DNA of 22,598 bases, from positions 1 to 22,598 of the IMG/VR virus record IMGVR_UViG_3300032668_000147. One strand, given 5' to 3'. The stretch is from a virus. Below are positions 5,610-22,598 of this stretch, piece by piece. Each line of letters starts with the position of its first letter. Position 1 is the first letter of the stretch. The notes under the pieces were generated by a model that searched no databases, was not told where the DNA came from, and saw nothing but the letters and a program-made list of their open reading frames with translations. A program made the position numbers and the translations under genes.

Positions 5610-6286
5610 GTGTACAAGAATTCTACAATAAAAATCCATTTCCCGGTCCATACACATTTGATCAGTTATCTAACTACGATGTAACTATTAATCCCTATGT
5701 TAAAGTCATTAATCACTATATAGATCACAAACAAAAGGTATTAGATGTAGGGTGCGGTACTGGGTTGCTTACTAATTTATTTGCATTAAGGTATGCCAGT
5801 GGTGAATTTCAAGGGTTAGATTTTAGTACAGGTGCCGATTATGCCAGTGATTTTGCCAAACAACATAGTGTGCTTAATGCAAAGTTTGTCAAGCAAAATT
5901 TCTTTGATTACTCTACTACGACCAAATTTGATATTATAATTGCCCAAAGTTTTATCACTCACGTATCCAATTATATAGATGCTGTAGATAAAATTAAACA
6001 GTTATTAAAACCTAATGGTATAGTCATTATAGGAGTATACAATAATTGGGGCAATTGTATTAAAAATTTATTATCTATTAGTTATAATAATAAACGATTA
6101 GAATTAGACCAAACAGCCAATCCATGCGAAATAGCCCTTACACATCGAGAAGTTCTTAATATGTTTAACGACTACGAATTACTAGAAGTAACCCCAAGTA
6201 TCAACAATAAATTAGTTAATTTAGCCAACTTATTTAACGCTAGAAACGGCGGACTAACTTTGTATGTGTTTAAAGGACTAACATGA
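5606..6286 (+). CDS. Class I SAM-dependent methyltransferase
   Basis: A 226-residue protein. Motif I VLDVGCGTG at residues 45-53 is a textbook S-adenosylmethionine site, followed by FQGLDFST (acidic residue at the end of strand 2), FDIIIAQSF (motif IV region) and LLKPNGIVIIGVYNN (motif V/VI region). The N-terminal YNKNPFPGPYTF is typical of small-molecule or tRNA-modifying methyltransferases of this broad family rather than of sequence-specific DNA methylases: there is no DPPY or PC motif. The substrate is unknown; a modified nucleobase, lipid or sugar is possible. It overlaps the upstream mini-gene and the next gene by 4 bases each. SAM could be supplied by the phage MetK. Confidence 0.8.
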   Translation: MSVQEFYNKNPFPGPYTFDQLSNYDVTINPYVKVINHYIDHKQKVLDVGCGTGLLTNLFALRYASGEFQGLDFSTGADYASDFAKQHSVLNAKFVKQNFFDYSTTTKFDIIIAQSFITHVSNYIDAVDKIKQLLKPNGIVIIGVYNNWGNCIKNLLSISYNNKRLELDQTANPCEIALTHREVLNMFNDYELLEVTPSINNKLVNLANLFNARNGGLTLYVFKGLT

Positions 6287-9580: not shown

Positions 9581-10513
9581 ATGAAGACAATAAGTGAACT
9601 ATTAATTTTTAAAAATGATTTAACTAATCGATTAAAGACCTTAAACGATGGTTTGGCCGAATTTATGGATCAAAAAGCTATCAGCTTAAAGATGTCACAG
9701 ATTAATAACTTTAATGCTGGTTATGATGATCAAATACATCAATTAATTCAAATGTATCAGAATTTGGATACAGAAAATCAAAAGATTGTTCTTGGAGTAA
9801 AACAATTAATAGATCAGATTACTGTAGACATAGATGCATTAGCTAATCAACTGTTTAATACACCCGAGTTCCAAAGCAAGTTTGCTAATAAAGAGCCATC
9901 ATTGTATCCAATGAATCAAGATCTATTAGAAATCATCAAGGTTAGAATTCGACAATATGGTGATTGGCACTATCCAGGATTACAGCTTAATACACGAGAA
10001 AAGCAGTGGATTGACTGTATGATTACTTGTGATCCCCTGTATCTAGTAGGAGAAAACATAGATCAGCTTAATGATGTAATTAAAGATTATCCAAAACAAT
10101 ATCAAGATAGACTACGATTATACACAGTTGATCAATTTGGGGAATTACCTCAAGAGCAGTTTGGATTTATATTATGCTGGAATTTATTTGAATATTGCAC
10201 AATTACTGAAATTGAACCTTATTTAAACTCAGTCTACAACCTACTTAGACCAGGTGGGGTATTCATGTTTAGTTACAATAATTGTGATGTTGTTTCATCT
10301 GCTAAATCAACTGAATCAGAGATATTTAACTACAATACTGTGCGTGCTATGCAGGCCGCATGTGAAAAAACAGGATATGAAGTACTATCTTTCGAAGATG
10401 GAGGTGTTGAGCATTGGAAATCACCATATACCAGTTGGGCAGAAATTAAGAAACCGGGCGAATTATCTACAGTAAAAGCACACCAGGCACTTGGAAAAAT
10501 ATTACCGAAATAA
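9581..10513 (+). CDS. Methyltransferase-like protein with N-terminal coiled coil
   Basis: A 310-residue protein in two parts. Residues 1 to about 95 are polar and helical with heptad-like leucines and isoleucines, probably a coiled coil or helical bundle. The C-terminal half resembles the later part of a class I methyltransferase: FGFILCWNLFEYC, then YLNSVYNLLRPGGVFMFSYNN and a GYEVLSFEDGG strand. The glycine-rich motif I is poorly formed (DPLYLVGENI may be its place), so SAM binding is uncertain and a structural or degenerate role is possible. It lies three bases after the polymerase stop and before the clamp. That location suggests a replication- or DNA-linked role, but this is only context. 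Confidence 0.6.
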   Translation: MKTISELLIFKNDLTNRLKTLNDGLAEFMDQKAISLKMSQINNFNAGYDDQIHQLIQMYQNLDTENQKIVLGVKQLIDQITVDIDALANQLFNTPEFQSKFANKEPSLYPMNQDLLEIIKVRIRQYGDWHYPGLQLNTREKQWIDCMITCDPLYLVGENIDQLNDVIKDYPKQYQDRLRLYTVDQFGELPQEQFGFILCWNLFEYCTITEIEPYLNSVYNLLRPGGVFMFSYNNCDVVSSAKSTESEIFNYNTVRAMQAACEKTGYEVLSFEDGGVEHWKSPYTSWAEIKKPGELSTVKAHQALGKILPK

Positions 10514-10563: not shown

Positions 10564-11298
10564 ATGAAAGATCATCTATTAGACATCGTAAAAAACACTT
10601 ATGGATTAGGAATTATCGATCTAGTTAAAGTAACAGGTACAAGTAAAGAAACTTCGATCGAAGCAATTGCTGAAGATCGCAGTGTTATTGTACAAGCAAA
10701 AGTAAACAATCCAGTACCAGAGTTTATTGGTGTATTTGGTATGCCAAATTTAGGTAAACTAAACACAATCTTAGGTATTCCGGAATACAAAGAAAATGCT
10801 AAGATTTCATTAAACACACAAGACAAAGATGGTGTAACTGTGCCAACAGGACTACACTTTGAAAACAAAGCAGGCGACTTTAAAAACGACTATCGTTTTA
10901 TGAGTCAAGAAATTATCAGCGACAAAGTTAAAAGTGTTATTTCACGCAAACAACTAAGCTGGGACGTAGAGTTTGAACCAACTGTAGCAAATATTCAACG
11001 TTTAAAGTTTATGTCAAGTGCAAATAGTGATGAAGTAATATTTACTGCCAAGACTGACGGCAAAAACTTGAAAATGTTCTTTGGTGATCATAGTTCACAT
11101 GCAGGTAACTTTGTATTCCAAGCTGATATTACTGGTTCATTGACTAAACCATTGTCATTTCCTGTAGCGGCTGTGATCAGTATCTTAAATTTAAGCGGTG
11201 ATAAAACATTCCGATTAAGTAATGATGGTGTATTACAAATTAGTGTAGATACAGGTCTAGCAACTTACAACTATATCTTACCAGCACAATCAAAATAG
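10564..11298 (+). CDS. 45: DNA polymerase sliding clamp (T4 gp45-like)
   Basis: A 244-residue protein, near the 228 of T4 gp45. The chain follows the clamp pattern of repeated beta-alpha-beta units: EFIGVFGMPNLGKLNTILG in the first domain, WDVEFEPTVANIQRLKFMSS in the linker and second domain, then FVFQADITGSLTKPLSFPV and a C-terminal strand set ending in TYNYILPA. The clamp forms a ring on DNA that tethers the polymerase and, in T4, also activates late transcription. It has the best ribosome site in the window and its own promoter, as expected for a protein needed in quantity. It shares the replication neighbourhood with the polymerase gene. Assignment is by pattern and context. Confidence 0.85.
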   Translation: MKDHLLDIVKNTYGLGIIDLVKVTGTSKETSIEAIAEDRSVIVQAKVNNPVPEFIGVFGMPNLGKLNTILGIPEYKENAKISLNTQDKDGVTVPTGLHFENKAGDFKNDYRFMSQEIISDKVKSVISRKQLSWDVEFEPTVANIQRLKFMSSANSDEVIFTAKTDGKNLKMFFGDHSSHAGNFVFQADITGSLTKPLSFPVAAVISILNLSGDKTFRLSNDGVLQISVDTGLATYNYILPAQSK

Positions 11299-11638: not shown

Positions 11639-11793
11639 CGCACAGTAATATTCGAACTACCTTTAAGTTAGTGGCAGAACGTCTGGTAGAATGGGAATGG
11701 TACGAACGCTTTATAGCACAAAACCCGGATTTAAAAGATCGCTGGGAACAACATAAAACATACGAGAAATTAAAAGATGACACACGAGATTGA
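11635..11793 (+). CDS. 52-aa small protein, related to the tail of the preceding one
   Basis: A short frame fills the space between the 112-residue protein and the DpdA-like gene: ATG at 11635 in an ATGA overlap with the upstream stop, TGA at 11791-11793. Its end overlaps the DpdA-like start by 17 bases. The product is helical and charged, with AERLVEWEWYERFIAQNPDL followed by KDRWEQHKTYEKL. NPDLKDRWE lines up with HPGLKDAYE of the preceding protein, and both are followed by similar helical ends, so a tandem duplication of a small module is likely. Start/stop interlocking supports a real gene. Function unknown. Confidence 0.65.
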   Translation: MTHSNIRTTFKLVAERLVEWEWYERFIAQNPDLKDRWEQHKTYEKLKDDTRD

Positions 11794-13342
11794 TAATTTA
11801 ACCAGTAAACAGAAAGATTATGCTGTATTCCTACCAGCATTGAGTGGTTTTTATGCCACTTACGTAGGAAAACAACGTTTTCCGGATGCTAACGGTAACT
11901 TGTATGTTGACAGCACACGTATTCCAGCAAACTTTGAAAATGGCATGGAAGGACTTAATTGGCTCAATCCAACTGAAGCTTACTTTCCCTATCACTGGAG
12001 TTTGTATTCAGCAGGTCACGCAGAGTTAGATGTTAACAAGCACAGTCCAAAAGAAGACATGGTCAGAAACAGAGATCGCAGTAAGAGTTTTATCCTAGGT
12101 GATTCAGGTGGTTTCCAAATTGGTAAGGGTGTTTGGGAAGGTGATTGGAAGGATCCTAACTGCCCTAAAGCACAAAAGAAACGTGAATTAGTATTAACTT
12201 GGATGGACGCATACATGGATTATGGTATGTGTTTAGATATCCCAGCTTGGGTGGCCCGTAGTCCGGCAGGTCGTAAAGCCACAGGTATTAATACCTATGA
12301 CGAAGCTGTACAAGGCACTTACATAAACAATGATTGGTTTATTAACAATCGTAATGGTAACTGTAAGTTCTTAAACGTTCTTCAGGGCGAAACACATGCT
12401 GATGCAGACGATTGGTATGATCGTATGAAAAAGTACTGTGATCCTAAGCAATATCCAGGCCGTCATTTTAATGGATGGGCTATGGGTGGACAGAACATGT
12501 GTGATGTTCATTTAATTCTAAGACGTTTAGTAGCATTGCGCTACGATAATTTACTACAAGAAGGCGTTCATGATTGGATGCACTTCTTGGGTACAAGTAA
12601 GCTAGAATGGGCTTGTTTGCTAACTGATATTCAACGTGCTGTAAGAAAATATGTCAACCCAGCATTTACTATATCCTTTGATTGCGCAAGCCCATTCCTG
12701 GCTTCTGCTAACGGGCAAATTTATATCCAAACTGAAATTGAAGATCGTAAGAAATGGGTATATCGTATGGTCCCAAGTGTAGATGATAAAAAATACGCCA
12801 AAGATTCACGTAAGTTTAGTGATGCTGTACTACAAGATGGTCGTTTTGCTAATTTCACAGACAGTCCTATAAGTAATCGTATACAGATCAATGATGTATG
12901 TTATTATGCTAAAGGTGACCTAAATAAAATAGGTAAAGAAGGTAAGACATCATGGGATAGTTTCAGTTACGCTATTCAAATGGGTCATAACGTTTGGAGC
13001 CATATTAATAGTGTACAAGAAGCAAATAGACAGTATGATCAAGGAGTTGTACCATATATGTTAGTACAAGAAACATTTGATCGTGTATACTTTAAAAATG
13101 TGGTTGATAGCATTTTTGCCGCACCAGATCGTGCAAGTGCAGAAGCTATTATTGAATATCATAATAAGTTTTGGCAACAGATTATCGGTACACGTGGCGC
13201 AACAGGTAAGAAAACTATTAATGCCAATACCTTTTATAATAGAAACTACCAAGAAGTTGAAGTTGAAGTAGAGCATCACCGTGATGACAGTGGTTTAGAT
13301 GAAAGCAAATTAGATGATTTAGAAGCAGGATTGGGGGAATAA
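11777..13342 (+). CDS. dpdA: DpdA-like DNA 7-deazaguanine transglycosylase (TGT superfamily)
   Basis: A 521-residue protein of the tRNA-guanine transglycosylase superfamily. DSGGFQIGKG gives Asp109, the substrate-binding Asp of the family; LDIPAW gives Asp154; GWAMGGQ is the substrate-loop glycine motif; FDCASPFLASANG gives Asp302, at the place of the catalytic nucleophile in TGT (DCxxPTRxARNG). I see no CxCxxC zinc motif of bacterial tRNA enzymes, and the protein is longer than bacterial Tgt (about 375). DpdA proteins exchange guanine in DNA for a 7-deazaguanine made by the FolE-QueD-QueE route, and those enzymes are encoded in this window. The acidic C-terminal tail (EVEVEVEHH then DESKLDDLEAG) is unusual. 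Archaeosine-type tRNA activity is the alternative. Confidence 0.8.
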   Translation: MTHEIDNLTSKQKDYAVFLPALSGFYATYVGKQRFPDANGNLYVDSTRIPANFENGMEGLNWLNPTEAYFPYHWSLYSAGHAELDVNKHSPKEDMVRNRDRSKSFILGDSGGFQIGKGVWEGDWKDPNCPKAQKKRELVLTWMDAYMDYGMCLDIPAWVARSPAGRKATGINTYDEAVQGTYINNDWFINNRNGNCKFLNVLQGETHADADDWYDRMKKYCDPKQYPGRHFNGWAMGGQNMCDVHLILRRLVALRYDNLLQEGVHDWMHFLGTSKLEWACLLTDIQRAVRKYVNPAFTISFDCASPFLASANGQIYIQTEIEDRKKWVYRMVPSVDDKKYAKDSRKFSDAVLQDGRFANFTDSPISNRIQINDVCYYAKGDLNKIGKEGKTSWDSFSYAIQMGHNVWSHINSVQEANRQYDQGVVPYMLVQETFDRVYFKNVVDSIFAAPDRASAEAIIEYHNKFWQQIIGTRGATGKKTINANTFYNRNYQEVEVEVEHHRDDSGLDESKLDDLEAGLGE

Positions 13343-13527
13343 TGGATAAAACAAAACTAGAAGGTCATTTAGCAGAGTTAGAACAATACCATACCGGGCT
13401 TGACAAACAGATCAAAGAAGGTTATACTAATTACTTAGATGATATCGGTTTAAGTAAAATGAAACAAGAGAAAGCGTATATACGTCGTCAAATTGAAGAA
13501 ACTAGGGAAAAGTTAATTAAACTATGA
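13342..13527 (+). CDS. DUF465/YdcH-like small coiled-coil protein
   Basis: A 61-residue helical protein: LEGHLAELEQYHTGLDKQI in the first helix, a short link around NYLDDIGLSKM, and a second helix KQEKAYIRRQIEETREKL. This helix-turn-helix hairpin with a leading LxxHLAxLExxHxxLD pattern matches the DUF465 (YdcH/SlyX-like) family, whose function is not established. Its start shares one base with the stop of the DpdA-like gene and its end interlocks (ATGA) with the next gene, so it is part of the same translational unit. It may be a scaffold or assembly partner; that is only inference. Confidence 0.6.
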   Translation: MDKTKLEGHLAELEQYHTGLDKQIKEGYTNYLDDIGLSKMKQEKAYIRRQIEETREKLIKL

Positions 13528-14081
13528 AACGTGTTTATAATGAAGGTGTAGCCGAAGCAGTAACATTCTTTGTAGGTGAAGAAATTGAGCGTACTCCCGC
13601 TTACGGAATGCCTACGTTATTTGTTGTAGGAGTACACGAGGCTGATGAAATCTTAGCAATAATCAACGATTACAATGCTAAATGTCAATTAACACCTAAT
13701 CAGATTAAACACATTTACTTTGGTGCTAATCAAAGTTTTGATGCCAACGGTGACGTTAACAATGTTGGTGTTTGGCGCCCTTGGGAAGATATGATCCATG
13801 TATGCTTAGAAGCAGGTTTCTGGTGTACCTTAGATTTAGATGTAAAGGATGTAGCAGGATTAGTAGAAGGTGGATTAATTGAGAAACGTAGATTTATTCC
13901 GCAGATTTCGGTTAAATTGCCCTATTTACAACATCTAGGTTATAATGCTACAATTAAGCTAGACGATGTAGACTTCAATGCAACCAATCCAGGTGTGTGG
14001 TGTCATACATTAAATTCATTAACCACTAGAGAAACCTTTACCGATTGGGATCAATATGGTAAAGATGAGATTATTAAATGA
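13524..14081 (+). CDS. Unknown protein next to DpdA, 185 aa
   Basis: An alpha/beta protein with several conserved-looking motifs: EEIERTPAYGMPTLFVVG near the N-terminus, YFGANQSF, then FWCTLDLDVKDV, RRFIPQISVKLPYLQHLGYN and DVDFNATNPGVWCH. The repeated beta-strand followed by helix spacing would fit a Rossmann-like or small barrel fold. I recall related proteins in T4-like phages of aquatic bacteria but cannot name a function. It sits four bases from a DpdA-associated gene and close to the QueD-like gene, with 4-base overlaps on both sides, so a role in base modification is a reasonable hypothesis. Confidence 0.65.
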   Translation: MKRVYNEGVAEAVTFFVGEEIERTPAYGMPTLFVVGVHEADEILAIINDYNAKCQLTPNQIKHIYFGANQSFDANGDVNNVGVWRPWEDMIHVCLEAGFWCTLDLDVKDVAGLVEGGLIEKRRFIPQISVKLPYLQHLGYNATIKLDDVDFNATNPGVWCHTLNSLTTRETFTDWDQYGKDEIIK

Positions 14082-14269
14082 TTAAATTATATAAAGAATG
14101 GGTAGAAAGCAAGCGTCTAGCTAATCTACAGGCCAGAGTAACTATAGCTACTGAATTAGAAAAACTTCCATATATGAGTAAACGTTTTATTCTAACAGAG
14201 TGTTTATTAACCCCAGACCAACTTGCTCGCAATGATGCGCTGTGGTCAGAAGAGCATGGTAGAGTATGA
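14078..14269 (+). CDS. Hypothetical small protein, 63 aa
   Basis: Starts in an ATGA overlap with the previous stop and ends in one with the next start. It is a helical, charged protein with the segment YMSKRFILTECLLTPDQLAR and the end NDALWSEEHGRV. The pattern of a basic helix, a turn and a helix ending in WSEE suggests a small DNA- or protein-binding unit. No family is recognised. An antisense frame over the same bases is a shadow. Confidence 0.6.
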   Translation: MIKLYKEWVESKRLANLQARVTIATELEKLPYMSKRFILTECLLTPDQLARNDALWSEEHGRV

Positions 14270-14715
14270 TACAAGCAGAACGTGATCTAGTAGATAGAAT
14301 TATAATTGCAGCTAAGAGAAAGATCTGGGTTAGCTTTACCAAAGAAGGAATTCACTGTTATCCAGCGGCCGCCACTGACCCATTACTTAAAACTGGAGAT
14401 GAATATGATGTATCGTTCCTTGCTAATCCTCATCGTCATATTTTCCATTTCAGGGTGTCAATTGATGTGTGGCACAATGACAGGGACATCGAGTTCATCC
14501 AATTCAAACGATGGCTTGAAAGCCTGTATGTGGGTCAGGGTTCCGTATTAGAATTAAATTATAAATCATGCGAAATGATCGCAGATGACCTATACGTGCA
14601 GATTGCACAAAAGTATCCCAATCGTGATGTTCACATTGAAGTAAGTGAAGATGGCGAAAACGGGTGTTTCATTGAGTACAACCGTACTCGTCCTCACCAA
14701 ACTGTCACTATTTAA
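14266..14715 (+). CDS. queD: QueD-like T-fold protein (probable 6-carboxytetrahydropterin synthase homologue)
   Basis: A 149-residue protein whose order of motifs follows QueD/PTPS: GIHCYPAA with His30 and Cys31, then PHRHIFHF with His56 and His58 (the HxH zinc pair, HGH in QueD), IEFIQFKRWLES where QueD has its DF--LK helix, SCEMIADDL with Glu103 where T-fold enzymes bind the pterin or purine ring, and VSEDGENGCFIEY at the end (ET----xY in QueD). QueD converts dihydroneopterin triphosphate, the FolE product, to the QueE substrate. Divergence is large (HRH not HGH, no clear Dh--LN motif), so it may be a QueD with changed chemistry or another T-fold member. Context with FolE, QueE and DpdA supports the call. 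Confidence 0.5.
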   Translation: MIQAERDLVDRIIIAAKRKIWVSFTKEGIHCYPAAATDPLLKTGDEYDVSFLANPHRHIFHFRVSIDVWHNDRDIEFIQFKRWLESLYVGQGSVLELNYKSCEMIADDLYVQIAQKYPNRDVHIEVSEDGENGCFIEYNRTRPHQTVTI

Positions 14716-14719
14716 GGAG
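14714..14719 (+). promoter_or_regulatory. Ribosome binding site that fixes a GTG start
   Basis: AAGGAG lies 7 bases before the GTG at 14727 and right after the previous stop codon. No ATG is available at this position and the protein N-terminus MANPAWLNKYL is coherent from here, so the GTG is the start. Confidence 0.6.
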
Positions 14720-14726
14720 ATTTAAC

Positions 14727-14963
14727 GTGGCAAATCCAGCATGGCTTAACAAATACCTTCGTATGAAGCCTGAAGTAACACAAATCTATAACGACTTAGA
14801 CGCATGGTTAAACTACTGTCGTTTCCACATGATCAAATACAACGAAGCTGACTTATATAAGTCACCTGCTTATCGTGAATGGCAAGAAAAGCGTAAACGT
14901 CGTGAACAATGGCGTCAACGTCAAGGCCAACCTACAGGTTATCAAGGTCGGAATCCACGCTAA
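14727..14963 (+). CDS. Small basic protein, 78 aa
   Basis: A helical N-terminal part (AWLNKYLRMKPEVTQIYNDL, then AWLNYCRFHMIKYN) leads into a SPAYREWQ segment and a strongly basic, glutamine-rich tail (RKRREQWRQRQGQ and GYQGRNPR). The tail would favour nucleic acid binding. It uses a GTG start with a good ribosome site. Its stop overlaps the start of the glycosyltransferase gene by one base. It is conserved-looking but I do not recognise a family. Confidence 0.6.
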   Translation: MANPAWLNKYLRMKPEVTQIYNDLDAWLNYCRFHMIKYNEADLYKSPAYREWQEKRKRREQWRQRQGQPTGYQGRNPR

Positions 14964-16027
14964 TGACAGTATTTGTTATAGATTTAGAGTCTGTTCCTAC
15001 GCGATATACTTGCGAATGGAAGACTCATGTACCTAAACTATTAGAGGAACATGGCCATGAAGTCTATGTTATTGCGGGCCCGACTGATATACCTAGTGCC
15101 ACTACTCCTGGGGCTTTCCTCAATTTTGGTGGTACTAATATCTATAAGGCTGCTCAAGTTGAGCGAATAGGAAGACTCTTCACTGAGGGCAGGGTTAAAT
15201 CGGGAGACCACTTCATTTTTACTGATGCTTGGCACCCTGGTATTATCAATCTTAAGTATATGTCTGAACTGCTGGGTATTAAAATAACCATACATGCACT
15301 TTGGCACTCTGGCAGTTATGATCCACAAGACTTCTTAGGACGTCTTATTGGTGACGCGGCTTGGGTTAGACATGCTGAACAAAGTTTCTTTTATGCTATC
15401 GATCACAACTACTTTGCCACAGATTTTCATATTGAAATGTTTGTTAACAATCTATTAGGTGATGACATCAGTGTAAAATCAAACTTTGCTGATGGTGCTA
15501 TTATACGCAGTGGTTGGCCTATGGAATATATGCCAGAAACACTTACCCCGTATAAACGTACCAAACGTGATTTAATCTTATTCCCGCATCGTATAGCACC
15601 AGAGAAGCAGGTAGAAATTTTTAAAGACCTTGCTCAATCTATGCCTGAATATGAATGGATTGTTTGTCAGGAACAGAACTTAACCAAAGAAGGATATCAT
15701 ACCTTATTAGGTGAAGCTAAGATGGTGTTTAGTGCTAACCTACAAGAAACACTAGGTATTAGCATGTATGAAGGTAGCTTAACTGATGCTATCCCAATAG
15801 TACCAGATCGACTAAGTTATAAAGAAATGTATGCTGAGATATGGAAGTATCCAAGTGAGTGGACAGAAAGTTATAGCAGTTACCTACATCACAAGCAAGA
15901 GCTGATAGCACACATTCGTGAGTTTATGTCTAACTATGATGAATATGCTAAATTTATTCATCAACAGGCTCGAGGCTTACATCACTATTTCTTTAGTGCT
16001 ACTAAACTATTAGAGAATATTAAGTAA
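14963..16027 (+). CDS. GT-B glycosyltransferase (GT4-like)
   Basis: A 354-residue enzyme. The C-terminal domain has the GT4 signatures: LILFPHRIAPEKQVEIF with Arg210 and Lys215 for the sugar-nucleotide diphosphate, the EX7E motif with Glu262 and Glu270 (QETLGISMYEG), and PIVPDRLSYKEMY after it. The N-terminal domain starts MTVFVIDLESVPTRY and includes FIFTDAWHPGI and ALWHSGSYD. It should transfer a sugar from a nucleotide donor; the acceptor is unknown (modified DNA base, capsid protein or host glycan). The start at 14963 shares one base with the previous stop; an ATG 54 bases earlier would add an 18-residue tail read out of the basic gene in another frame and is rejected. The aminotransferase gene follows with a one-base overlap. 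Confidence 0.8.
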   Translation: MTVFVIDLESVPTRYTCEWKTHVPKLLEEHGHEVYVIAGPTDIPSATTPGAFLNFGGTNIYKAAQVERIGRLFTEGRVKSGDHFIFTDAWHPGIINLKYMSELLGIKITIHALWHSGSYDPQDFLGRLIGDAAWVRHAEQSFFYAIDHNYFATDFHIEMFVNNLLGDDISVKSNFADGAIIRSGWPMEYMPETLTPYKRTKRDLILFPHRIAPEKQVEIFKDLAQSMPEYEWIVCQEQNLTKEGYHTLLGEAKMVFSANLQETLGISMYEGSLTDAIPIVPDRLSYKEMYAEIWKYPSEWTESYSSYLHHKQELIAHIREFMSNYDEYAKFIHQQARGLHHYFFSATKLLENIK

Positions 16028-16932
16028 TGGTTGCCTTACCTAATCTTAAACATCTACCCTATGGTGGAGCAGAAGCCGTAGTTGATCCTAATGCTATAGG
16101 TTTTGTACAAGCCATCGGGCAGTCTATGTTAGCGACTAATTGTTTGTTAGATCGTAACATACACACAGAGTTTGTTAATGAATATCGTAAATGGATCTTA
16201 TCTGGCCAATTGAATAATGTACAAGGGCTAGAAGAGTTTCCCATTGCTGCATACAGTAACGGTACCACAGAAGCATTTGATAAGTTTTACCTAAAGAATC
16301 GCACACGTAGATTTCGTTGCTTTAAAGGTGAGTATATGTATCATCAGGCCTCGTGGCGTAACTACTTTCCAGACTGGAAGTTTATCGATGATGCGGTAAT
16401 TAGTGAAAATGATGCTGTAGTTATCAGTTTACCATTTAGTGATCTAGGCGGTGAGCATCCTCGAATGCAGGCGGTGTTAGATCAATGTCTGGCATTAGGT
16501 GTACCTGTGTTAGTCGACTGTGCTTATTTTGGTATATGCAAGGATATCTCTTTTGACTTTACACATCCGGCTATAACAGATCTAACCTTTAGTCTAAGCA
16601 AATTTTTACCCGTAGCACACCTACGTATTGGTATTAGATTTACACGGTTTGATGACGATGATAGTCTATTAGTCAGTCACAAAACGCAGTATGTTAATCG
16701 ACTAGGCTGTGCTGTAGGATTAGAAATATTTAAAAATTATACACCAGACACTATCTATACCAGGTTTGAACAACAACAGACTAATTTATGCAGTTTATTG
16801 GGCGTAACTCCTAGTAAATGTGTGATTTTTGGCTTAGATTATAACAATATGTACCCAGAATATAACCGTGGTACAAAGACCAACAGATTAAGTTTGTCTA
16901 AATACTTATATGATAACCAATTACCTGACTAA
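16027..16932 (+). CDS. PLP-dependent aminotransferase-like protein (fold type I)
   Basis: A 301-residue protein with the landmarks of fold type I: AAYSNGTTEAFDKFYLK for the phosphate cup, VISLPFSDLGGEHPRM, VLVDCAYFG with Asp164 (pairs with the pyridine nitrogen) and Tyr167, and FSLSKFLPVAHLRIG with Lys192 as the Schiff-base lysine. The SLSKxxxxxxxRIG motif is that of aspartate/histidinol-phosphate type aminotransferases. The protein is shorter than typical members (350-400); the C-terminal small domain appears reduced. It could make an amino sugar or an amino-decorated base, or be a decarboxylase or lyase. It forms a tight three-gene cassette with the glycosyltransferase and the oxygenase-like gene. 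Confidence 0.7.
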   Translation: MVALPNLKHLPYGGAEAVVDPNAIGFVQAIGQSMLATNCLLDRNIHTEFVNEYRKWILSGQLNNVQGLEEFPIAAYSNGTTEAFDKFYLKNRTRRFRCFKGEYMYHQASWRNYFPDWKFIDDAVISENDAVVISLPFSDLGGEHPRMQAVLDQCLALGVPVLVDCAYFGICKDISFDFTHPAITDLTFSLSKFLPVAHLRIGIRFTRFDDDDSLLVSHKTQYVNRLGCAVGLEIFKNYTPDTIYTRFEQQQTNLCSLLGVTPSKCVIFGLDYNNMYPEYNRGTKTNRLSLSKYLYDNQLPD

Positions 16933-17473
16933 GAGTAAAATACCTGTTATTTGGGACTACCATCAAATAGAGTTCGCATGGACTGAACTTTATTCCTACG
17001 ATCAAGTTAATCCCGAGGATCCTTGGGATAGTCCTGCTACACAGTTAAAACTCGAACAAGAAGCCTTATATAATAGTTGGGGTATTGAAAAGGCCTGTAC
17101 CAAACATTACCAAAGTTATGTTACTAGATTAGACTTTGATCCCCGAGATATATTTGATCAACTGCCCGGACATACACATAACTATAACTTCTTAAAGTTA
17201 GGTGCTGGACGTATCCTACCTTGGCATTTGGATACCTATACCTACTACATACATACCAACAATGTGCCGCCTGAAGATATACACAAGGTACGCAGATCTA
17301 TAGTCCTAATGCAAGATTGGGCAAATGGACAAATACTTCAGTTCGATGACCAAGTTATTAGCCATTGGTCTGCAGGTGATACTTTAACTTGGTCACACAA
17401 CCTATGGCATGGTGCGGGCAATTTTGGTCATAATGACCTAGTTGTTATGATAATAAATTATCAAATAGTTTGA
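16910..17473 (+). CDS. 2OG-Fe(II) oxygenase-like protein lacking the usual Arg
   Basis: A 187-residue protein with RILPWHLDTYTYYI (His106, Asp108) and LWHGAGNFGHNDLVVMIINYQ, where His167 is the distal iron ligand. The strands QILQFDDQVISHW and GDTLTWSHNLWH fit a double-stranded beta-helix of the aspartyl/asparaginyl hydroxylase or prolyl hydroxylase type. An Arg about 8-13 residues after the distal His normally holds 2-oxoglutarate; here that stretch contains His174 and Asn175 but no Arg. The enzyme may use another residue or another cofactor. It overlaps the aminotransferase gene by 23 bases, the longest same-strand overlap in this operon. It is the last gene before the folE promoter. Confidence 0.6.
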   Translation: MITNYLTKSKIPVIWDYHQIEFAWTELYSYDQVNPEDPWDSPATQLKLEQEALYNSWGIEKACTKHYQSYVTRLDFDPRDIFDQLPGHTHNYNFLKLGAGRILPWHLDTYTYYIHTNNVPPEDIHKVRRSIVLMQDWANGQILQFDDQVISHWSAGDTLTWSHNLWHGAGNFGHNDLVVMIINYQIV

Positions 17474-17498
17474 CACCGCCTAAATAATCATGTATTAT
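17470..17498 (+). promoter_or_regulatory. Sigma70-like promoter for folE
   Basis: A perfect -35 TTGACA (17470-17475), a 17-base spacer and TATTAT (17493-17498; five of six matches). The spacer carries CCTAAATA (17479-17486), and the DNA downstream closely matches the clamp promoter. Transcription would start about 35 bases upstream of the folE ATG at 17541. The -35 overlaps the end of the oxygenase-like gene. Confidence 0.65.
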
Positions 17499-17531
17499 TA
17501 ATTATCAATGCCAATCCACTGGCTTAACATC

Positions 17532-17535
17532 GGAG
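17532..17535 (+). promoter_or_regulatory. Ribosome binding site that decides the folE start
   Basis: GGAG lies five bases before the ATG at 17541. An in-frame ATG at 17508 has no such site and would lie close to the expected transcription start, so 17541 is preferred. Confidence 0.55.
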
Positions 17536-17540
17536 ACACA

Positions 17541-18233
17541 ATGTCAAAATATAAATTTAGCGAACAACTTCGCAACAATCTAAAAGCAAATAACAAAAGA
17601 TTCTGGGCAGGCGACAATATCTCAGAATACATCACAGACGCAGGCAAAGAACAACTAATTGACGAAGCCACAGAAGCATTTGAAACTGTGCTTGATACCT
17701 TGTTAATTGATCGTGAAACAGATCCTAACAGTCACGGCACAGCACGTAGACTGGCTAAAATGTACTTTAACGAAATTATGGCGGGCAGATATGAACCAGC
17801 ACCTGATGCTACAGCTTTTCCAAATGATAGTGAGGATCGTTACGAAGGGATGTTGGTGGTTCGTAGCGAGTTACGTAGTATGTGTAGTCACCACCATCAA
17901 CCTGTCGCAGGAGTCGCTTACATTGGTATTATCGCTGCCAACAAGCTCATCGGACTATCTAAATATACTAGGATTGCTCAGTGGTGCGCTCGCCGTGGAA
18001 CTCTACAAGAAGAGCTTGCGAATGACATTACGAGAGAAATTGCTAAGGCGACTGGATCAGATAACGTAGCTGTTTACTTAGAGGCAGAACATGGTTGCTG
18101 CATCAATCGTGGCATCATGGCACATTCCAGCCTAACTCAAACCACAGTATTAACGGGTGCGTTTAGAGATGATCCTAGCACTAAAAAAGAGTTCTTTGAT
18201 AACATTAAACTTCAATCAAGAAATGGTAAGTAA
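17541..18233 (+). CDS. folE: GTP cyclohydrolase I
   Basis: A 230-residue enzyme. Zinc ligands are visible as MCSHHHQP (Cys115, His118) and EHGCCINRG (Cys186 or Cys187), matching Cys110, His113 and Cys181 of E. coli FolE. VRSELRSMCSHH, KLIGLSKYTRIAQW and RGTLQEELANDI are characteristic family blocks. It converts GTP to dihydroneopterin triphosphate, the first step of both folate and 7-deazaguanine synthesis. In a phage that also carries QueE and a DpdA-like protein, the 7-deazaguanine route is the likely purpose. It has its own strong promoter and a real leader, unlike most genes here. The C-terminal codons contain a 15-base segment that is repeated downstream of the gene. Confidence 0.95.
   Translation: MSKYKFSEQLRNNLKANNKRFWAGDNISEYITDAGKEQLIDEATEAFETVLDTLLIDRETDPNSHGTARRLAKMYFNEIMAGRYEPAPDATAFPNDSEDRYEGMLVVRSELRSMCSHHHQPVAGVAYIGIIAANKLIGLSKYTRIAQWCARRGTLQEELANDITREIAKATGSDNVAVYLEAEHGCCINRGIMAHSSLTQTTVLTGAFRDDPSTKKEFFDNIKLQSRNGK
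18201..18215 (+). repeat. Direct repeat, copy 1 (15 bases)
   Basis: AACATTAAACTTCAA near the end of folE, coding for NIKLQ. An identical copy begins 66 bases further on, in the space after the gene. Confidence 0.75.
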
Positions 18234-18263
18234 ATTGTTTTTTAAGCAATATAAAGGATTAAA

Positions 18264-18302
18264 ATGAACATTAAACTTCAACAGGAGTTTGCTCCAAGAT
18301 GA
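18264..18302 (+). CDS. 12-codon mini-ORF between folE and the membrane protein gene
   Basis: An AAAGGA ribosome site (18253-18258) precedes ATG at 18264 by 5 bases. The frame reads MNIKLQQEFAPR and stops at TGA 18300-18302, interlocked with the ATG of the next gene at 18299 (ATGA). The NIKLQ part is the same as the end of FolE because of the direct repeat. It could be a leader peptide that couples translation of the next gene, or the debris of a partial duplication. The next gene has no other good ribosome site, which favours a coupling role. Confidence 0.35.
   Translation: MNIKLQQEFAPR
18267..18281 (+). repeat. Direct repeat, copy 2 (15 bases)
   Basis: AACATTAAACTTCAA, identical to bases 18201-18215, here placed directly after the ATG of the 12-codon frame. 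Confidence 0.75.
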
Positions 18303-18535
18303 TAGGCGCTGATGTAGTATGGTTTGGTGTAGGACTAATCTTTGGAATATTCTTTGGGCTTAACATCTACAATGATCGTAGGGTCAAGGATCGCCAAAAG
18401 GCCTATGAACAAATAGATGAAGAAGTACGTAAAGATGCTATTCGCTACAAGAACCTAAGCGAAAGCCTGTTAGAAGATGTTAAATTTTGGCGTCATCGCG
18501 CTAATACACTTAGAGATATTAAGGAAAAGAAATGA
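18299..18535 (+). CDS. Small membrane-anchored coiled-coil protein, 78 aa
   Basis: One hydrophobic segment at about residues 5-23 (VVWFGVGLIFGIFFGLNIY) with a short N-terminus, followed by basic residues NDRRVKDRQK and a long charged helix to the end (QIDEEVRKDAIRYKNLSESL). The topology would be N-out, C-in if the positive-inside rule holds. It is similar in shape to small phage inner-membrane proteins such as i-spanins, but no lysis gene is visible nearby, so that identity is not supported. Its stop interlocks with the CDGSH-like gene. Confidence 0.65.
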   Translation: MIGADVVWFGVGLIFGIFFGLNIYNDRRVKDRQKAYEQIDEEVRKDAIRYKNLSESLLEDVKFWRHRANTLRDIKEKK

Positions 18536-18729
18536 CACCATCAGTAGAAACCATGAAACAAGGTACATGTGGATGTGGTCGCAGTCGTAGTGGTGATTGC
18601 GACGGTAGTCACAGTTATACTTCAGAGCAGTGGGCTAAAATACAGGAAGCAATTGCTCTGGATGAATTCTTAAACGAGAACAAAGATGACATTGACAGTG
18701 AACATAATGTCAGTGATCAAGGGGGTTAA
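18532..18729 (+). CDS. CDGSH-type iron-sulphur mini-protein
   Basis: A 65-residue protein with TCGCGRSRSGDCDGSH at residues 12-27. Cys13, Cys15, Cys23 and His27 are the 3Cys-1His ligands of a [2Fe-2S] cluster in the CDGSH family (consensus CxCxxSxxxPxCDGSH). Ser18 is also in place. The loop before the third Cys is one residue shorter than in mitoNEET-like proteins and the usual Pro is missing. The rest is an acidic helix. CDGSH proteins take part in electron or cluster transfer. In this phage it could serve the iron enzymes encoded nearby (QueE, desaturase, oxygenases), which is inference. The start interlocks with the upstream stop. Confidence 0.7.
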   Translation: MTPSVETMKQGTCGCGRSRSGDCDGSHSYTSEQWAKIQEAIALDEFLNENKDDIDSEHNVSDQGG

Positions 18730-19061
18730 TGATGAAATGGTTTGATAGTTGGATTCAACGTTGTTATAACCGAGCTCGCAGTCGTGATGAAAATCAAAGT
18801 ATTATGCTAGACGACAGCCCAAAGCTCAGTCGCAATGGTAAAACAGGCATTGGTAAAGTTATGCGCAGAGTAGAACACAATTATGACGATCGTAGTGTTA
18901 TTACTTTCAAAGTGTTTGGTGCTAACGGCGGTATGATTGTTGAAACTAATCGCTATGACGAAAAGCGTGATACCGAAGCTATTGGTCGTTATGTAATCAG
19001 CGACGATGCTAATTTAGTAGAATCATTGGGCAAGATTGTTAGTATGGAATATCTACGTTGA
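18729..19061 (+). CDS. Conserved-looking hypothetical protein, 110 aa
   Basis: Basic N-terminus (KWFDSWIQRCYNRARSRDE), then a beta-rich part with VITFKVFGANGGMIVETNRY, a DEKRDTEAIGRYVISDDAN segment and a final helix SLGKIVSMEYLR. I have an unverified impression of similar proteins with a Y--ISDD--L---L-KIV pattern in T4-like phages of aquatic bacteria, without known function. The start shares one base with the previous stop; a second ATG follows directly at 18732. The fold is probably small alpha/beta. Confidence 0.65.
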   Translation: MMKWFDSWIQRCYNRARSRDENQSIMLDDSPKLSRNGKTGIGKVMRRVEHNYDDRSVITFKVFGANGGMIVETNRYDEKRDTEAIGRYVISDDANLVESLGKIVSMEYLR

Positions 19062-19396
19062 TTAGGCTGCCGTCAGGCTGTACTATTAACTACGAAATAA
19101 CAGTCATAGTACACGATATGCCTGAAGATTTTCTAGTTTGGTGGCAAGAAGTAGGCGGCTTGATATCGTACGGTGAATACTATGACGCTAAAGGTCGAGT
19201 TACTAAAACTCCAATACTACGCTATGGGGTCGGGCGATCAAGTCACAAGTCAGCAGGTAATCCAGAATTCCTAATTAGATTTCGGGGCGAAGATGCCGGA
19301 GTGGCACTGATGATGCTAATGAGATGGACTGACTTGGTTGTTGGTCATAATATGAAAGAAGTAGAACACATAAAGGAATTACCCAATGCCGAATAA
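19058..19396 (+). CDS. Hypothetical protein, 112 aa (TTG start)
   Basis: The start is best placed at TTG 19058 in a TTGA overlap with the previous stop; the first in-frame ATG is about 20 codons later and would remove a beta strand (CTINYEITVIVH). The protein contains DMPEDFLVWWQEVGGLISYG, FLIRFRGEDAGVALMMLMRW and a HNMKEVEHIKELP tail. It looks like a small alpha/beta fold. No family is recognised. The final codons overlap the phosphoribosyltransferase start by 11 bases. Confidence 0.55.
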   Translation: MIRLPSGCTINYEITVIVHDMPEDFLVWWQEVGGLISYGEYYDAKGRVTKTPILRYGVGRSSHKSAGNPEFLIRFRGEDAGVALMMLMRWTDLVVGHNMKEVEHIKELPNAE

Positions 19397-19889
19397 ACAA
19401 TACTACGGTTACGAAGATATTCACCAAATGGTGAATAAGATTAGCCTACAAATGTATAAAGACGCATGGCGTCCAGACTATATTGTAGGACTTACCCGCG
19501 GAGGACTTGTTCCCGCGGTGATCATGAGCAATGCTTTAGATATTCCAATGCACACACTTAAAGTTAATCTACGTGATCATGTAGAAGGTTCAGAAAGTAA
19601 CCTATGGATGAGTGAAGATGCTTTTGGTTATAAACAAGAACCCAAAAATATTCTTATCGTAGACGACATCAATGATACAGGTGCTACCTTAGATTGGATT
19701 ATTAATGATTGGCAGTCTAGTTGCTTACCCGATGATCCAAAGTGGTTGAATGTTTGGGGCAGCAATGTACGCTTTGCTGTGCTAATTGACAATTTATCTA
19801 GCAAGTTTAGTCGTCAAGTAGACTACTGTGCCGAAACTATTAACAAAGCAGAAGATGATGTTTGGATTGTTTATCCCTGGGAAGCATAA
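19386..19889 (+). CDS. Phosphoribosyltransferase (type I, purine-like)
   Basis: A 167-residue protein with the PRPP-binding motif ILIVDDINDTGAT at residues 89-101. Upstream, YIVGLTRGGLVPAVIMSNAL is the flexible-loop and PPi-loop region seen in purine and xanthine-guanine phosphoribosyltransferases. It joins a nucleobase to PRPP or, less likely, acts as a regulator. In the context of 7-deazaguanine genes it could salvage guanine or a deazapurine base into a nucleotide; this is inference. AAAGGA at 19372-19377 is its ribosome site. Length agrees with bacterial Gpt-type enzymes (about 150-170). Confidence 0.8.
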   Translation: MPNKQYYGYEDIHQMVNKISLQMYKDAWRPDYIVGLTRGGLVPAVIMSNALDIPMHTLKVNLRDHVEGSESNLWMSEDAFGYKQEPKNILIVDDINDTGATLDWIINDWQSSCLPDDPKWLNVWGSNVRFAVLIDNLSSKFSRQVDYCAETINKAEDDVWIVYPWEA

Positions 19890-20965
19890 TGCTTAAAGTT
19901 AATTCCAGCGATAGTACCTTTAATAATTTTATTTGGGCATACAATTCATACCAACAGTACAAGTTTCTACATGAGACAGGTGATCCTGCTACATTAGATC
20001 GTCAAATTGAAATATCCAACGATATTGATGCTATTCCTGTGTTTAGTTTTCATGAATCTGAAAAGATTCATAATTCACTACATCCGACAGTTATAGTCAA
20101 TTCAGGTGAAGAAGGATCATATATATTTGATTTTCTAGGTGCTAAACCGTTTCCAACTGATAAAAAAGTTATCTTTTTTAGTGATTCAAATTTTAAATTA
20201 GTTGATAGAGAAAAATATAATTGCTTACCCATAGTATGGCATTGGTTCTTATTAGAGCAATTTACAGCAATTGCATCAAATAGACATATTGCGTCATTTG
20301 TTGACTTAACTAGAGATTTTACTAAAACAAGAAAATTTAATTTTTGTAGCTTAGTAGGGTTTGCAAGACCTCTTAGAGATACATTAGTTAATAAATTAAT
20401 ATCAAACTTGTCTAATAGAAATTTTGTTTTGCAATATAACGGCAATACATTAGGGCAAGAACCAATCGGCGATATTAAATATAAATTTTCAAATTATAAT
20501 AGTTACCAAAAATATGATATTCTTAATGCACAAAATGAACATTTTACAATTTCCAAATCTATCCCCATCGAATTATACAATAATTCCAACTTTATGTTAG
20601 TTGTCGAATGCCTATTACACGACAATTATGATACACATATAACAGAAAAAATAACCAAAGCATTAATTACAGGAATCCCATTCATTGTTGTTTCTTCCTC
20701 AAATTACCTTACGCAACTAAGGGAATTAGGTTTCCGAACCTACAATAGTCTATGGGATGAATCTTATGATACTATTACTCCCGCCGAAGATAGATTTGAT
20801 GCTATTGTTGATTTGATTAATCAATTAGATTCGTTTGACTGGATCGCTAATGCAGATAAATTAGAAGCTATTGCAAATCATAATAAATTAAATTTCTTTA
20901 ACCTAAATAAAACCATGATAGCGGCATTTGAACAGTTTGACAAATACATTTACGACGTGTTATAA
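19889..20965 (+). CDS. Glycosyltransferase-like protein, paralogue of the gene at 1214
   Basis: A 358-residue protein. HITEKITKALITGIPFIVV at about residues 250-268 (Glu253, Lys254) followed by YLTQLRELGFRTYNSLWDES and a YDTI---EDRF-AI helix is a GT10-like C-terminal pattern. FNFCSLVGFARPLRD in the middle corresponds to FICLNNVNRPHR of the first copy. The start is the ATG at 19889 sharing one base with the previous stop; an ATG 27 bases upstream lies within the phosphoribosyltransferase gene and is rejected. It is far more AT-rich than its neighbours: bases 20161-20220 have 9 G or C in 60, against 28 in 60 for bases 21061-21120 in queE. It therefore looks like a recent insertion. Confidence 0.5.
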   Translation: MLKVNSSDSTFNNFIWAYNSYQQYKFLHETGDPATLDRQIEISNDIDAIPVFSFHESEKIHNSLHPTVIVNSGEEGSYIFDFLGAKPFPTDKKVIFFSDSNFKLVDREKYNCLPIVWHWFLLEQFTAIASNRHIASFVDLTRDFTKTRKFNFCSLVGFARPLRDTLVNKLISNLSNRNFVLQYNGNTLGQEPIGDIKYKFSNYNSYQKYDILNAQNEHFTISKSIPIELYNNSNFMLVVECLLHDNYDTHITEKITKALITGIPFIVVSSSNYLTQLRELGFRTYNSLWDESYDTITPAEDRFDAIVDLINQLDSFDWIANADKLEAIANHNKLNFFNLNKTMIAAFEQFDKYIYDVL

Positions 20966-20991
20966 TTGTTATTATTACCTAGAGATATATT

Positions 20992-21849
20992 ATGAAATTA
21001 AAAGTTAGTGAAATATTTTATAGTGCGCAAGGTGAAGGACGTTTTGTAGGCGTTCCTAGTGTATTCTTGCGTACATTTGGCTGTAACTTCCAGTGTAGTG
21101 GCTTTGGTATGGCACGTGGTACTTGTAGTACAGAAGCAGATGAAGTTGCTAAAACTGTAGAACTATACAGTCGTTACGAAGACTTGCCGTTAGTTGACAC
21201 AGGCTGCGATAGTTACGCGAGTTGGCATCCTAAATTCAAACACCTAAGCCCAACATATGATACCAGTGAAGTAGTTGAAAAGATGTTAGCACTGACTCCT
21301 AATAATAAATGGATGCAGGTCAATGGTAATGATGTACATCTAGTTATTACAGGTGGTGAGCCATTACTAGGTTGGCAACGTGCTTATGGTGAATTATTTG
21401 AACATCCACGTATGCAAGATATCAGTAACATTACGTTTGAAACTAACGGTACTCAAGAACTAAGTGAAGACTTTAGAAATACTCTAGACGCATTACAATT
21501 AGAAGGTGACAGAGAAGTTACATTCAGCGTTAGTGCTAAATTAAGTGCCAGTGGTGAGAGTTGGGATGATGCTATCAAGCCAGAGATTGTGTGCAGTTAT
21601 GAAGAGTTTGGTACTACATATCTTAAATTTGTAGTTGAAAAACCCGGCGACTTTGATGAAGTTGATCGTGCAGTATCAGAATATAGACGTGCAGGCTTTA
21701 CAGGTGTTATATACATAATGCCAGTTGGCGGTGTTGTTAGCGTATATGATGGTAATAAATTTAACGTAGCTGACGAAGCTATGCGTCGTGGTTATTATTA
21801 CAGCCCAAGATTACATGTGGATCTTTGGGGTAATAGTTGGGGAAAATAA
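20992..21849 (+). CDS. queE: 7-carboxy-7-deazaguanine synthase (radical SAM), phage type
   Basis: A 285-residue radical SAM enzyme. Landmarks: EIFYSAQGEGRFVGVPSVFL at the start, GCNFQC with Cys31 and Cys35, TGCDSYASW with Cys72, VITGGEPLLGW (GGEP at 121-124), ITFETNGT and, near the end, YIMPVGG. It converts 6-carboxytetrahydropterin to 7-carboxy-7-deazaguanine. In standard QueE the three cluster cysteines lie close together and are followed by DS-F-W; here the CDSYASW block is separated from the first two cysteines by 36 residues, with an extra Cys45 in the insertion. I believe this arrangement is also seen in some myophage QueE proteins, but could not check. The next gene, metK, supplies its cofactor. 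Confidence 0.9.
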   Translation: MKLKVSEIFYSAQGEGRFVGVPSVFLRTFGCNFQCSGFGMARGTCSTEADEVAKTVELYSRYEDLPLVDTGCDSYASWHPKFKHLSPTYDTSEVVEKMLALTPNNKWMQVNGNDVHLVITGGEPLLGWQRAYGELFEHPRMQDISNITFETNGTQELSEDFRNTLDALQLEGDREVTFSVSAKLSASGESWDDAIKPEIVCSYEEFGTTYLKFVVEKPGDFDEVDRAVSEYRRAGFTGVIYIMPVGGVVSVYDGNKFNVADEAMRRGYYYSPRLHVDLWGNSWGK

Positions 21850-21858
21850 AAGGAAAAT

Positions 21859-22598
21859 ATGAGTTATCTATTTACAAGTGAAAGTGTTAGTGAAGGACAT
21901 CCAGATAAGGTAGCAGACGCTATCAGTGATGCAATTTTAGATTTAGCCATGTCTAGTGAAGATGCAAGTGTACGCTGTGCTTGTGAAACTTTAGTTACAA
22001 CAAACCGTGTAATTCTAGCTGGAGAATATAAAAATGTCATCCTACACCCAGAAGAAGTCGAAAGTACAGTACGCAAAGTTATCAAAAATATTGGCTACGA
22101 ACAAGATGGATTCAATTGGCGAACAGTGGAGATTACTAACCTACTACATGGCCAAAGTGCTGATATTGCTCTTGGTACTGACAATTTTGGAGCAGGTGAT
22201 CAAGGCCTAATGTTTGGCTATGCTACTAACGAAACTCCTAACTACATGCCCCCAGCAATTTACTACAGTCATGAAATCGTCAAAGAACTTAGTCGCCAAC
22301 GCAAAGGTGGTCAAGAATGGTTAGGACCAGATTCTAAAAGTCAAGTGACTGTTGAATACAACGACGATGGCACTATTAAGCGTATTGCTAAAATTGTATG
22401 TTCAACACAGCACAGCGCAACACCTGATATTGAAGATATACGCAGAGTAGTTAAAGAATACATTGAAGGGGTAATACCTGCGGAGTTAATTGATGCTGAT
22501 ACTGAGTTTCTTATCAATCCTACTGGCCGTTTTGTCATTGGTGGTCCCGATGGTGATACAGGACTTACAGGGCGAAAAATTATCGTTGACACGTACGG
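21859..22598 (+). CDS. metK: S-adenosylmethionine synthetase, 3' partial
   Basis: The first 246 codons of a MetK protein (E. coli enzyme 384 residues), cut by the end of the window. [15 protein letters not shown] at 11-25 contains the ATP-binding His14 and Asp16; [17 protein letters not shown] at 111-127 and [20 protein letters not shown] at the visible end are the other signature blocks. It makes S-adenosylmethionine from methionine and ATP. It starts nine bases after the queE stop with an AAAGGA ribosome site, so the SAM producer and the radical SAM consumer are made together. Two methyltransferases in the window are further users. Antisense frames over it are shadows. Confidence 0.95.
   Translation, partial: [246 protein letters not shown]

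Follow-up and report, generated by a model that had tools for sequence, protein, structure and literature searches.

The stretch examined here, called the window throughout, is the complete 22,598-base virus record IMGVR_UViG_3300032668_000147 of IMG/VR, itself a fragment from a T4-like virus, and we read a run of genes on its + strand, with moderate confidence, as a QueC-free, DpdA2-type system for modifying DNA with 7-deazaguanine, in which a 149-residue protein would act on 7-carboxy-7-deazaguanine (CDG) and a glycosyltransferase would decorate the base. We base this reading on gene identities, on the transglycosylase and GT-B folds of structural models, on kinship with DpdA2, on gene linkage, and on the exclusion of QueC, all of which were computed here. 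A first-pass annotation of the same DNA had proposed a DpdA-like transglycosylase, FolE, a QueD-like protein, QueE, and MetK, and these open reading frames are indeed present where it placed them, all on the + strand. It had not listed a glycosyltransferase, a small protein termed ORF185, or a phosphoribosyltransferase, and once the glycosyltransferase is included, a different final base is to be predicted. Judged by DpdA, the nearest relative is contig L001, which is identical across that protein but stops about 1.2 kb later; the remainder of the window virus's own pathway therefore cannot be read directly, and relatives stand in for it.

A DpdA2-like transglycosylase

The putative DNA-guanine transglycosylase is a protein of 521 residues (11777–13342, + strand); IMG/VR contains at least 599 coding stretches related to it, the best 80 of which were used as set A. 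Neither Pfam nor PHROGs nor NCBIfam gave a match, PF01702 (tRNA-guanine transglycosylase, TGT) and NF041059 (DpdA) included, and a PDB sequence search with the protein or its profile gave nothing credible; a PF01702 match is not defining for DpdA2, the DpdA2-type proteins of Acidovorax phage ACP17 and Xanthomonas phage X1 also being without one. An AlphaFold2 model (pLDDT 77) had TGTs as its top Foldseek matches (E 2.5e-5), and the best 50 matches listed by VIA-align were all TGTs (best Z 17.3, root-mean-square deviation 4.7, 302 aligned). Asp109 and Asp302, singled out in the first-pass annotation, are at least 98% conserved across 83 sequences, and D109SGGFQ, D154, Q203-G, and D302 are invariant among 31, with D109, D154, and D302 aligning with their counterparts in DpdA2. 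In TGT and DpdA enzymes, residues of this set serve catalysis and base recognition.

Profile comparison by hhalign gave 97.1% (E 5.3e-11) against the DpdA2 of Vibrio phage nt-1 and 97.3% (E 2e-11) against the DpdGR type, a member of which, GR7B, matches PF01702 at 2e-5, just below the cut-off, and TIGR00432 at 4.5e-11, well below it. Against a narrow profile of bacterial TGTs (24 sequences, mostly gammaproteobacterial), the family reached 35.6% (E 4e-4), whereas DpdA2 reached 89.4% (E 2e-6); the TGT sequences were chosen from 80 loci plus Escherichia coli K-12, and one of the 25 chosen was left out for an internal stop. There was no profile support for kinship of the family with the DpdST type or with the DpdA of phage 9g (3.2% and 1.1%), and for lack of such support the kinship of the DpdST type with TGT is a reading by eye only. 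On sequence grounds, the 521-residue protein is DpdA2-like and forms a subfamily of its own, named DpdW here. Its distant members, at 28–36% identity, occur in the PA5oct group of Pseudomonas phages, Vibrio phage 2.275.O, and Sinorhizobium phage Phosso. In 2.275.O, the DpdA relative has QueF, a transporter of the vitamin-uptake type, QueC, and FolE in its vicinity, and a protein encoded between the DpdA relative and QueF (L084:13723-14835) scores 21.9 bits against Amidoligase_2, for a cut-off of 22; it is possible that this protein carries out a further step on the modified base.

A TGT fold with TGT-like active-site motifs is also what would be expected of a phage enzyme that acts on tRNA and raises queuosine in the host, and the first-pass annotation had named grouping with tRNA-acting enzymes as the outcome that would speak against its proposal. 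What we find is a profile nearer DpdA2 (E 5.3e-11) than the narrow bacterial TGT profile (E 4e-4), a position beside DNA polymerase and clamp-like genes, and, in whole-sequence searches of 21 relatives, many of them fragments, no QueC over the cut-off and no QueF, both of which are required for queuosine. We consider a tRNA enzyme very improbable. From the TGT fold, the DpdA2 kinship, and the conserved biosynthetic neighborhood, we infer instead that the 521-residue enzyme very probably acts on DNA and modifies that of the phage with a 7-deazaguanine, which gives good, if indirect, backing to the earlier proposal of self-modification by this phage.

A 149-residue protein proposed in the place of QueC

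Gene linkage was counted in 214 viral loci, none dropped: 80 found by DpdA (set A), 35 found by the ACP17 homologue of the 149-residue protein (set B), and 80 and 19 found by QueC (sets C and D). The profiles behind the set A counts, and behind those for the stretches of named phages, were seeded partly from those same loci. Where at least 4 kb of set A sequence lies downstream of dpdA, ORF185, the gene for the 149-residue protein (14266–14715, + strand, in the window), and the glycosyltransferase gene were each present in 48 of 48 loci; where at least 8 kb does, FolE was found in 32 of 32, the phosphoribosyltransferase in 28, and QueE in 25. None of the 80 set A loci has QueC, and the 14 without a match to the 149-residue protein all have less than 4 kb downstream. 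Set B shows the same gene in the company of four DpdA types: at 50 bits or more, 30 of its 35 loci have a DpdA match (DpdW 7, DpdA2 10, DpdST 10, DpdGR 3) and five have none. Conversely, no gene for the 149-residue protein was found in the 99 loci of sets C and D. Across all 214 loci, 101 carry this gene, 99 carry QueC, 14 short ones carry neither, and none carries both; among those with a DpdA match of at least 50 bits, the counts are 96, 33, and again zero for both.

The first-pass annotation had reported QueC as absent from the window and had pointed to the rest of the genome for queC and queF. No QueC was found in the whole record, and extending the search to relatives gave the negative results described above, from a QueC search that matched 12 of 14 control genomes, 11 of them over the cut-off. 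Full-length QueC was likewise found in none of the 11 named phage genomes that carry the 149-residue protein, with the controls 9g and 2.275.O matching strongly, and QueD is present in 10 of these 11. The earlier suggestion that the base need not derive from preQ0 thus gains ground, and we think it quite likely that no preQ0 intermediate is formed. It could still be that host QueC supplies preQ0 and that the phage inserts preQ0 or a derivative, given how common QueC is in bacteria, as in the control genomes just cited, and how easily fragmentary records could hide a phage QueC. If QueC and the 149-residue protein had unrelated functions, however, mixed loci would be expected, and neither these nor a full-length QueC in the named genomes was seen; supply by the host appears rather improbable to us.

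What the 149-residue protein is can be stated more readily in the negative. The first-pass annotation had called it QueD-like, and this label does not hold. It matches no Pfam family, and so not PF01242, and in PHROGs it matches 17812, which has no assigned function. QueD catalysis depends on a Cys before an HxH motif plus an Asp-His dyad, and the 149-residue family (29 aligned sequences; 10 phages) has neither at the expected places. Its most conserved positions include H30, H56, H58, H70, R73, E76, C102-E103, and E128, with Cys102 invariant. Comparison with QueD by hhalign gave 86% (E 5e-6) over the C-terminal 48 columns only, and six other profiles gave at most 0.6%. Relatives, moreover, encode a separate true QueD (PF01242), found in seven of the 21, downstream of metK in G003, G004, and G021; two of these QueD sequences keep the Cys, HLHGH, DH, and Glu. 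We therefore reject the identification as QueD and describe the protein as T-fold-like and, judged by its residues, at best a remote QueD relative without the QueD catalytic residues. Members of the family occur in 26 phage records, which between them name ten hosts, and a viral-contig scan with the homologue from Cellulophaga phage phiST found no relative. PA5oct encodes a second QueD-like protein (L263:7502-7972) besides a canonical QueD.

FolE, QueE, and MetK were rightly named at first pass. FolE, GTP cyclohydrolase I (17508–18233, + strand), matches PF01227 at E 8e-39 with 133.3 bits against a cut-off of 27. The QueE-like radical SAM enzyme, the putative CDG synthase (20992–21849, + strand), matches phrog_2076 at 3e-54 and, by profile, the solved QueE structure 6nhl at 9e-11, with the NCBIfam QueE models below their cut-offs. 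Its cysteines, C31-x3-C35-x36-C72, are all invariant in 19 sequences, the third cluster Cys being displaced by about 36 residues through a long insert, so that the canonical C-x3-C-x2-C spacing of QueE is not kept. MetK, the S-adenosylmethionine synthetase (21859–22596, + strand), is real, though only 246 residues precede the end of the record; it matches TIGR01034 of NCBIfam at 1.5e-83, which is below the cut-off as the protein is cut short. It appears to be optional: of 30 relatives whose sequence continues for 9.5 kb or more past dpdA, eight have it.

FolE, QueD, and QueE make CDG by established reactions, and in the window virus, this step would be carried out by FolE and QueE together with a true QueD expected past the record end. 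Since its gene replaces QueC, the 149-residue protein would take CDG in QueC's stead, and we somewhat favor the view that it acts on CDG or its product. The simplest and most likely reaction would be decarboxylation to 7-deazaguanine, which would match DpdL, reportedly the name that Cui 2023 gave to a CDG decarboxylase; that study is said to have described dDG or dCDG in the DNA of phiST. By way of Asp109 and Asp302, DpdA would then exchange guanine in DNA for the CDG-derived base, and the freed guanine may be recycled by a xanthine/guanine-type phosphoribosyltransferase (19386–19889, + strand; PF00156 E 2e-14), whose best NCBIfam match is xanthine phosphoribosyltransferase at 1.6e-12, below the cut-off.

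A rival scheme, raised at first pass, has DpdA insert CDG itself (dCDG), with the 149-residue protein otherwise employed and any sugar placed on the carboxylate. The 21 relatives, with no QueC over the cut-off and no QueF found, agree with it, a carboxylate would offer the glycosyltransferase a handle, and there is a precedent in phage Bipper, which lacks only QueC and for which Hutinet 2019 allowed CDG (PMC6884629), so that the loss of QueC was already foreshadowed. Cui 2023, too, reportedly described dCDG in phage DNA. The constancy of the 149-residue gene, which is present in every set A locus of sufficient length and with four types of DpdA, looks instead like that of a step replacing QueC, and we regard insertion of unaltered CDG as unlikely.

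The glycosyltransferase and the proposed base

The glycosyltransferase is encoded by a 372-residue open reading frame (14909–16027, + strand), whose true start is probably internal, as homology starts near residue 18. Its model (pLDDT 85) has a GT-B fold over residues 18–372, and VIA-align (best Z 23.9, root-mean-square deviation 3.5, 317 aligned) likens it to GT4 enzymes such as BshA and sucrose-phosphate synthase. E280 and E288, invariant among 40 sequences, form the E-x7-E motif of GT4-type enzymes. The window protein has no Pfam glycosyltransferase match; its PA5oct homologue matches Glycos_transf_1 at E 0.0011, below the cut-off, and in BUCT-ZZ01, a glycosyltransferase-like protein beside the homologue of the 149-residue protein has a glycosyltransferase match just over the Pfam cut-off. 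PDB sequence searches with the profile of this family, and with that of the 149-residue family, returned chance-looking matches or none. The enzyme may also resemble the tRNA-queuosine mannosyltransferase.

Among named phages, homologues occur in 19 records (the PA5oct group, Phosso, ACP17, and X1, and weakly in the PhiXhv group and Ep032), and the gene adjoins that for the 149-residue protein in ACP17, PA5oct, and Phosso. Counted at 250 bits or more in the 214-locus tally, it is present in seven of 10 DpdA2-type loci with the 149-residue gene and in none of 13 with QueC, in none of 10 DpdST loci, which do have the 149-residue gene, and in none of the 99 QueC loci. This distribution suggests that the glycosyltransferase tracks the QueC-free branch rather than DpdA as such, and the DpdST loci indicate that it is dispensable for the core pathway.

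In the scheme we prefer, the GT4-like enzyme would probably add a sugar to the inserted base and so mask the DNA from host nucleases; taken alone, the claim that this glycosyltransferase acts on the modified base seems to us evenly poised. That the core pathway can run without it, as in the DpdST loci, fits a glycosyltransferase that leaves DNA alone, either as a chance member of the cluster or with a surface or protein target, and phage genomes carry many glycosyltransferases. We hold this to be possible, if the lesser prospect: the gene accompanies the system in all 48 set A loci long enough to tell and in no QueC locus, and the pair it forms with the 149-residue gene stays adjacent in ACP17 and PA5oct and also in Phosso, where it stands apart from the DpdA relative. 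A role resembling that of the T4 hydroxymethylcytosine glucosyltransferases was considered and rejected: PF00303 proteins were found in three of the 21 relatives, one each, and carry a PFNIA motif, which we take to be that of thymidylate synthase; the absence of PF00303 from the other 18 is little informative, many of these being fragments.

ORF185 (13524–14081, + strand) is strictly linked to dpdA and has no assigned function. Pfam and PHROGs searches with ORF185-like proteins gave nothing. A shorter ORF185-like protein precedes DpdA2 in ACP17, recognized by eye and then used as a seed for the hidden Markov model (HMM), so that it has no independent match. Phosso gp222 and an X1 protein were tried as homologues and set aside, at hhalign 0.2% and 0.1%.

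Several observations weigh against the pathway as a whole. The QueC profile for the 214 loci was built from two seeds only, the loci were picked by query genes and include many close relatives, which deprives the counts of independence, and genes may go unseen in fragments; 66 of the 99 QueC loci, moreover, have no DpdA match of at least 50 bits in the stretch examined. Weak partial QueC-like matches occur in two of the 21 relatives. Both span profile positions 156–207 only, with QueC as the best NCBIfam match (E 0.00085 and 0.00022), and one of the two proteins, followed through the relatives, is present in its own alone of the 21; we set both aside for their partial coverage, and they are possibly divergent QueCs. 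Among the named phages, the QueC match of D479 passes the cut-off but is partial, and that of X1 is weak. QueD is absent from the window and found in only seven of the 21 relatives, many of which are fragments, MetK was not found near dpdA in many relatives, and QueE was not found in seven of 32 long loci. The QueD kinship of the 149-residue protein rests on 48 columns at 86%. Finally, the pathway chemistry, namely the reaction of the 149-residue protein, sugar transfer, guanine salvage, and action on DNA, is something we infer from genes rather than measure, and decarboxylation and glycosylation fit poorly together, a decarboxylated base having no obvious sugar acceptor; ways out would be a sugar on carbon 7, some other reaction by the 149-residue protein, or another target for the glycosyltransferase.

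Genomic surroundings and known systems

The + strand gene run begins at 10564, upstream of dpdA, with a sliding-clamp-like protein (10564–11298), which serves as a genomic anchor and stands outside the chemistry; it has no Pfam match of its own and shares 32% identity over 250 columns with a Phosso protein that bears a sliding-clamp annotation, and a search of 86 sequences, the window included, found a homologue in 80. A family B DNA polymerase is also encoded in the record and is flanked by methyltransferase-like proteins at 5606–6286 (over Pfam cut-offs) and 9581–10513 (below them), for which a link to MetK or to base modification is possible. On the - strand lie a hexapeptide-repeat transferase (2374–3063; Hexapep 9e-15) and a protein that by eye is a desaturase-like membrane protein with HRKHH and has no Pfam match (3857–4594). 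Also by eye, 16027–16932 encodes an aminotransferase-like protein of the pyridoxal phosphate type, without a Pfam match and present in only one related locus, L035, and 3139–3813 and 16910–17473 resemble 2-oxoglutarate oxygenases (H-x-D), with no Pfam oxygenase match.

Modification of phage DNA with 7-deazaguanines is already known (PMC6884629). The DNA of nt-1 holds small amounts of dPreQ0, dADG, and dG+ (PMC6884629), and in 6E351A, a relative of nt-1, 15% of deoxyguanosine is changed, with a mass consistent with dPreQ1 (PMC12028318). The DpdA2 of nt-1 and DpdW share the aligned motifs DSGG(F/L)Q, (L/F)D-x-IP, and S(F/Y)D, and both viruses have FolE beside the transglycosylase, where nt-1 also has a PTPS-like protein. 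However, nt-1 has QueC, and ArcS too according to the first article (PMC6884629), whereas the 21 relatives of the window have no QueC over the cut-off and no QueF, and the window family adds the 149-residue protein, ORF185, and the glycosyltransferase; in a tblastn search of a phage collection that included nt-1, that phage was not among the matches listed for the glycosyltransferase or the 149-residue protein.

ACP17 carries QueD, FolE, the ORF185-like protein, a DpdA2-type transglycosylase, the glycosyltransferase, the homologue of the 149-residue protein, and QueE in one run and, like the window record, has no QueC in its genome, although its transglycosylase groups with the DpdA2 of nt-1 (hhalign 100%) and not with DpdW, and its gene order is different. 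The PA5oct group of Pseudomonas jumbo phages, which includes Paride, has proteins 36% (DpdA), 43% (glycosyltransferase), and 55% (149-residue protein) identical to those of the window; QueE is present and the run again follows a polymerase and a clamp-like gene, with FolE and QueD elsewhere in the genome and no QueC in that of PA5oct. In PA5oct, unlike the window, ORF185 went undetected by HMM in the stretch fetched and the glycosyltransferase gene precedes that for the 149-residue protein. Paride, noted as a killer of dormant cells, encodes homologues of DpdA, the glycosyltransferase, and the 149-residue protein, and the passages found in the article describing it report no DNA base modification of the phage. 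The genome of phiST also combines QueD, QueE, FolE, and a homologue of the 149-residue protein with a small, by-eye transglycosylase-like protein and no QueC, but the latter protein is of a small DpdA-like type without profile kinship to DpdW (3%), and no glycosyltransferase was found in the stretch examined. Polymerase, clamp, 149-residue protein, glycosyltransferase, FolE, and QueE form one cluster in Phosso (L114:3130-13637), with the DpdA relative about 170 kb away, and in X1 a PAPS-reductase-family gene (L111:1837-2370) lies within the cluster of FolE, glycosyltransferase, transglycosylase, and QueE.

As far as we have seen, the DpdA2-like subfamily is new, as are the mutual exclusion of QueC and the 149-residue protein and the linkage of a glycosyltransferase and ORF185 to the system, and part of what concerns the 149-residue protein may already be covered by Cui 2023. 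Among the titles and abstracts listed from the open-licence literature, none describes DNA with a glycosylated 7-deazaguanine. We put forward such a base only tentatively, as a QueC-free 7-deazaguanine inserted by a DpdA2-like enzyme and sugared by a dedicated GT4-like one in several phage groups, including that of PA5oct and Paride. Phage T4 masks its DNA with sugar after replication, an outcome like the one proposed here, though with another base and acceptor, since T4 DNA carries glucosylated hydroxymethylcytosine.

The best-studied branches of DpdA go through QueC; here, a small protein of unassigned chemistry stands in QueC's place, and the larger DpdA types of this QueC-free branch often come with a glycosyltransferase. 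If our reading is true, a sugared purine is to be predicted in viral DNA, a guanine counterpart of the glucosylated cytosine of T4, and a set of hypothetical genes, present in hundreds of contigs of environmental phages, would be explained, with a prediction that is checkable in phages already cultured. DNA with bases of this sort should resist restriction enzymes, perhaps further nucleases as well, and would thus be relevant to phage sequencing and to host range.

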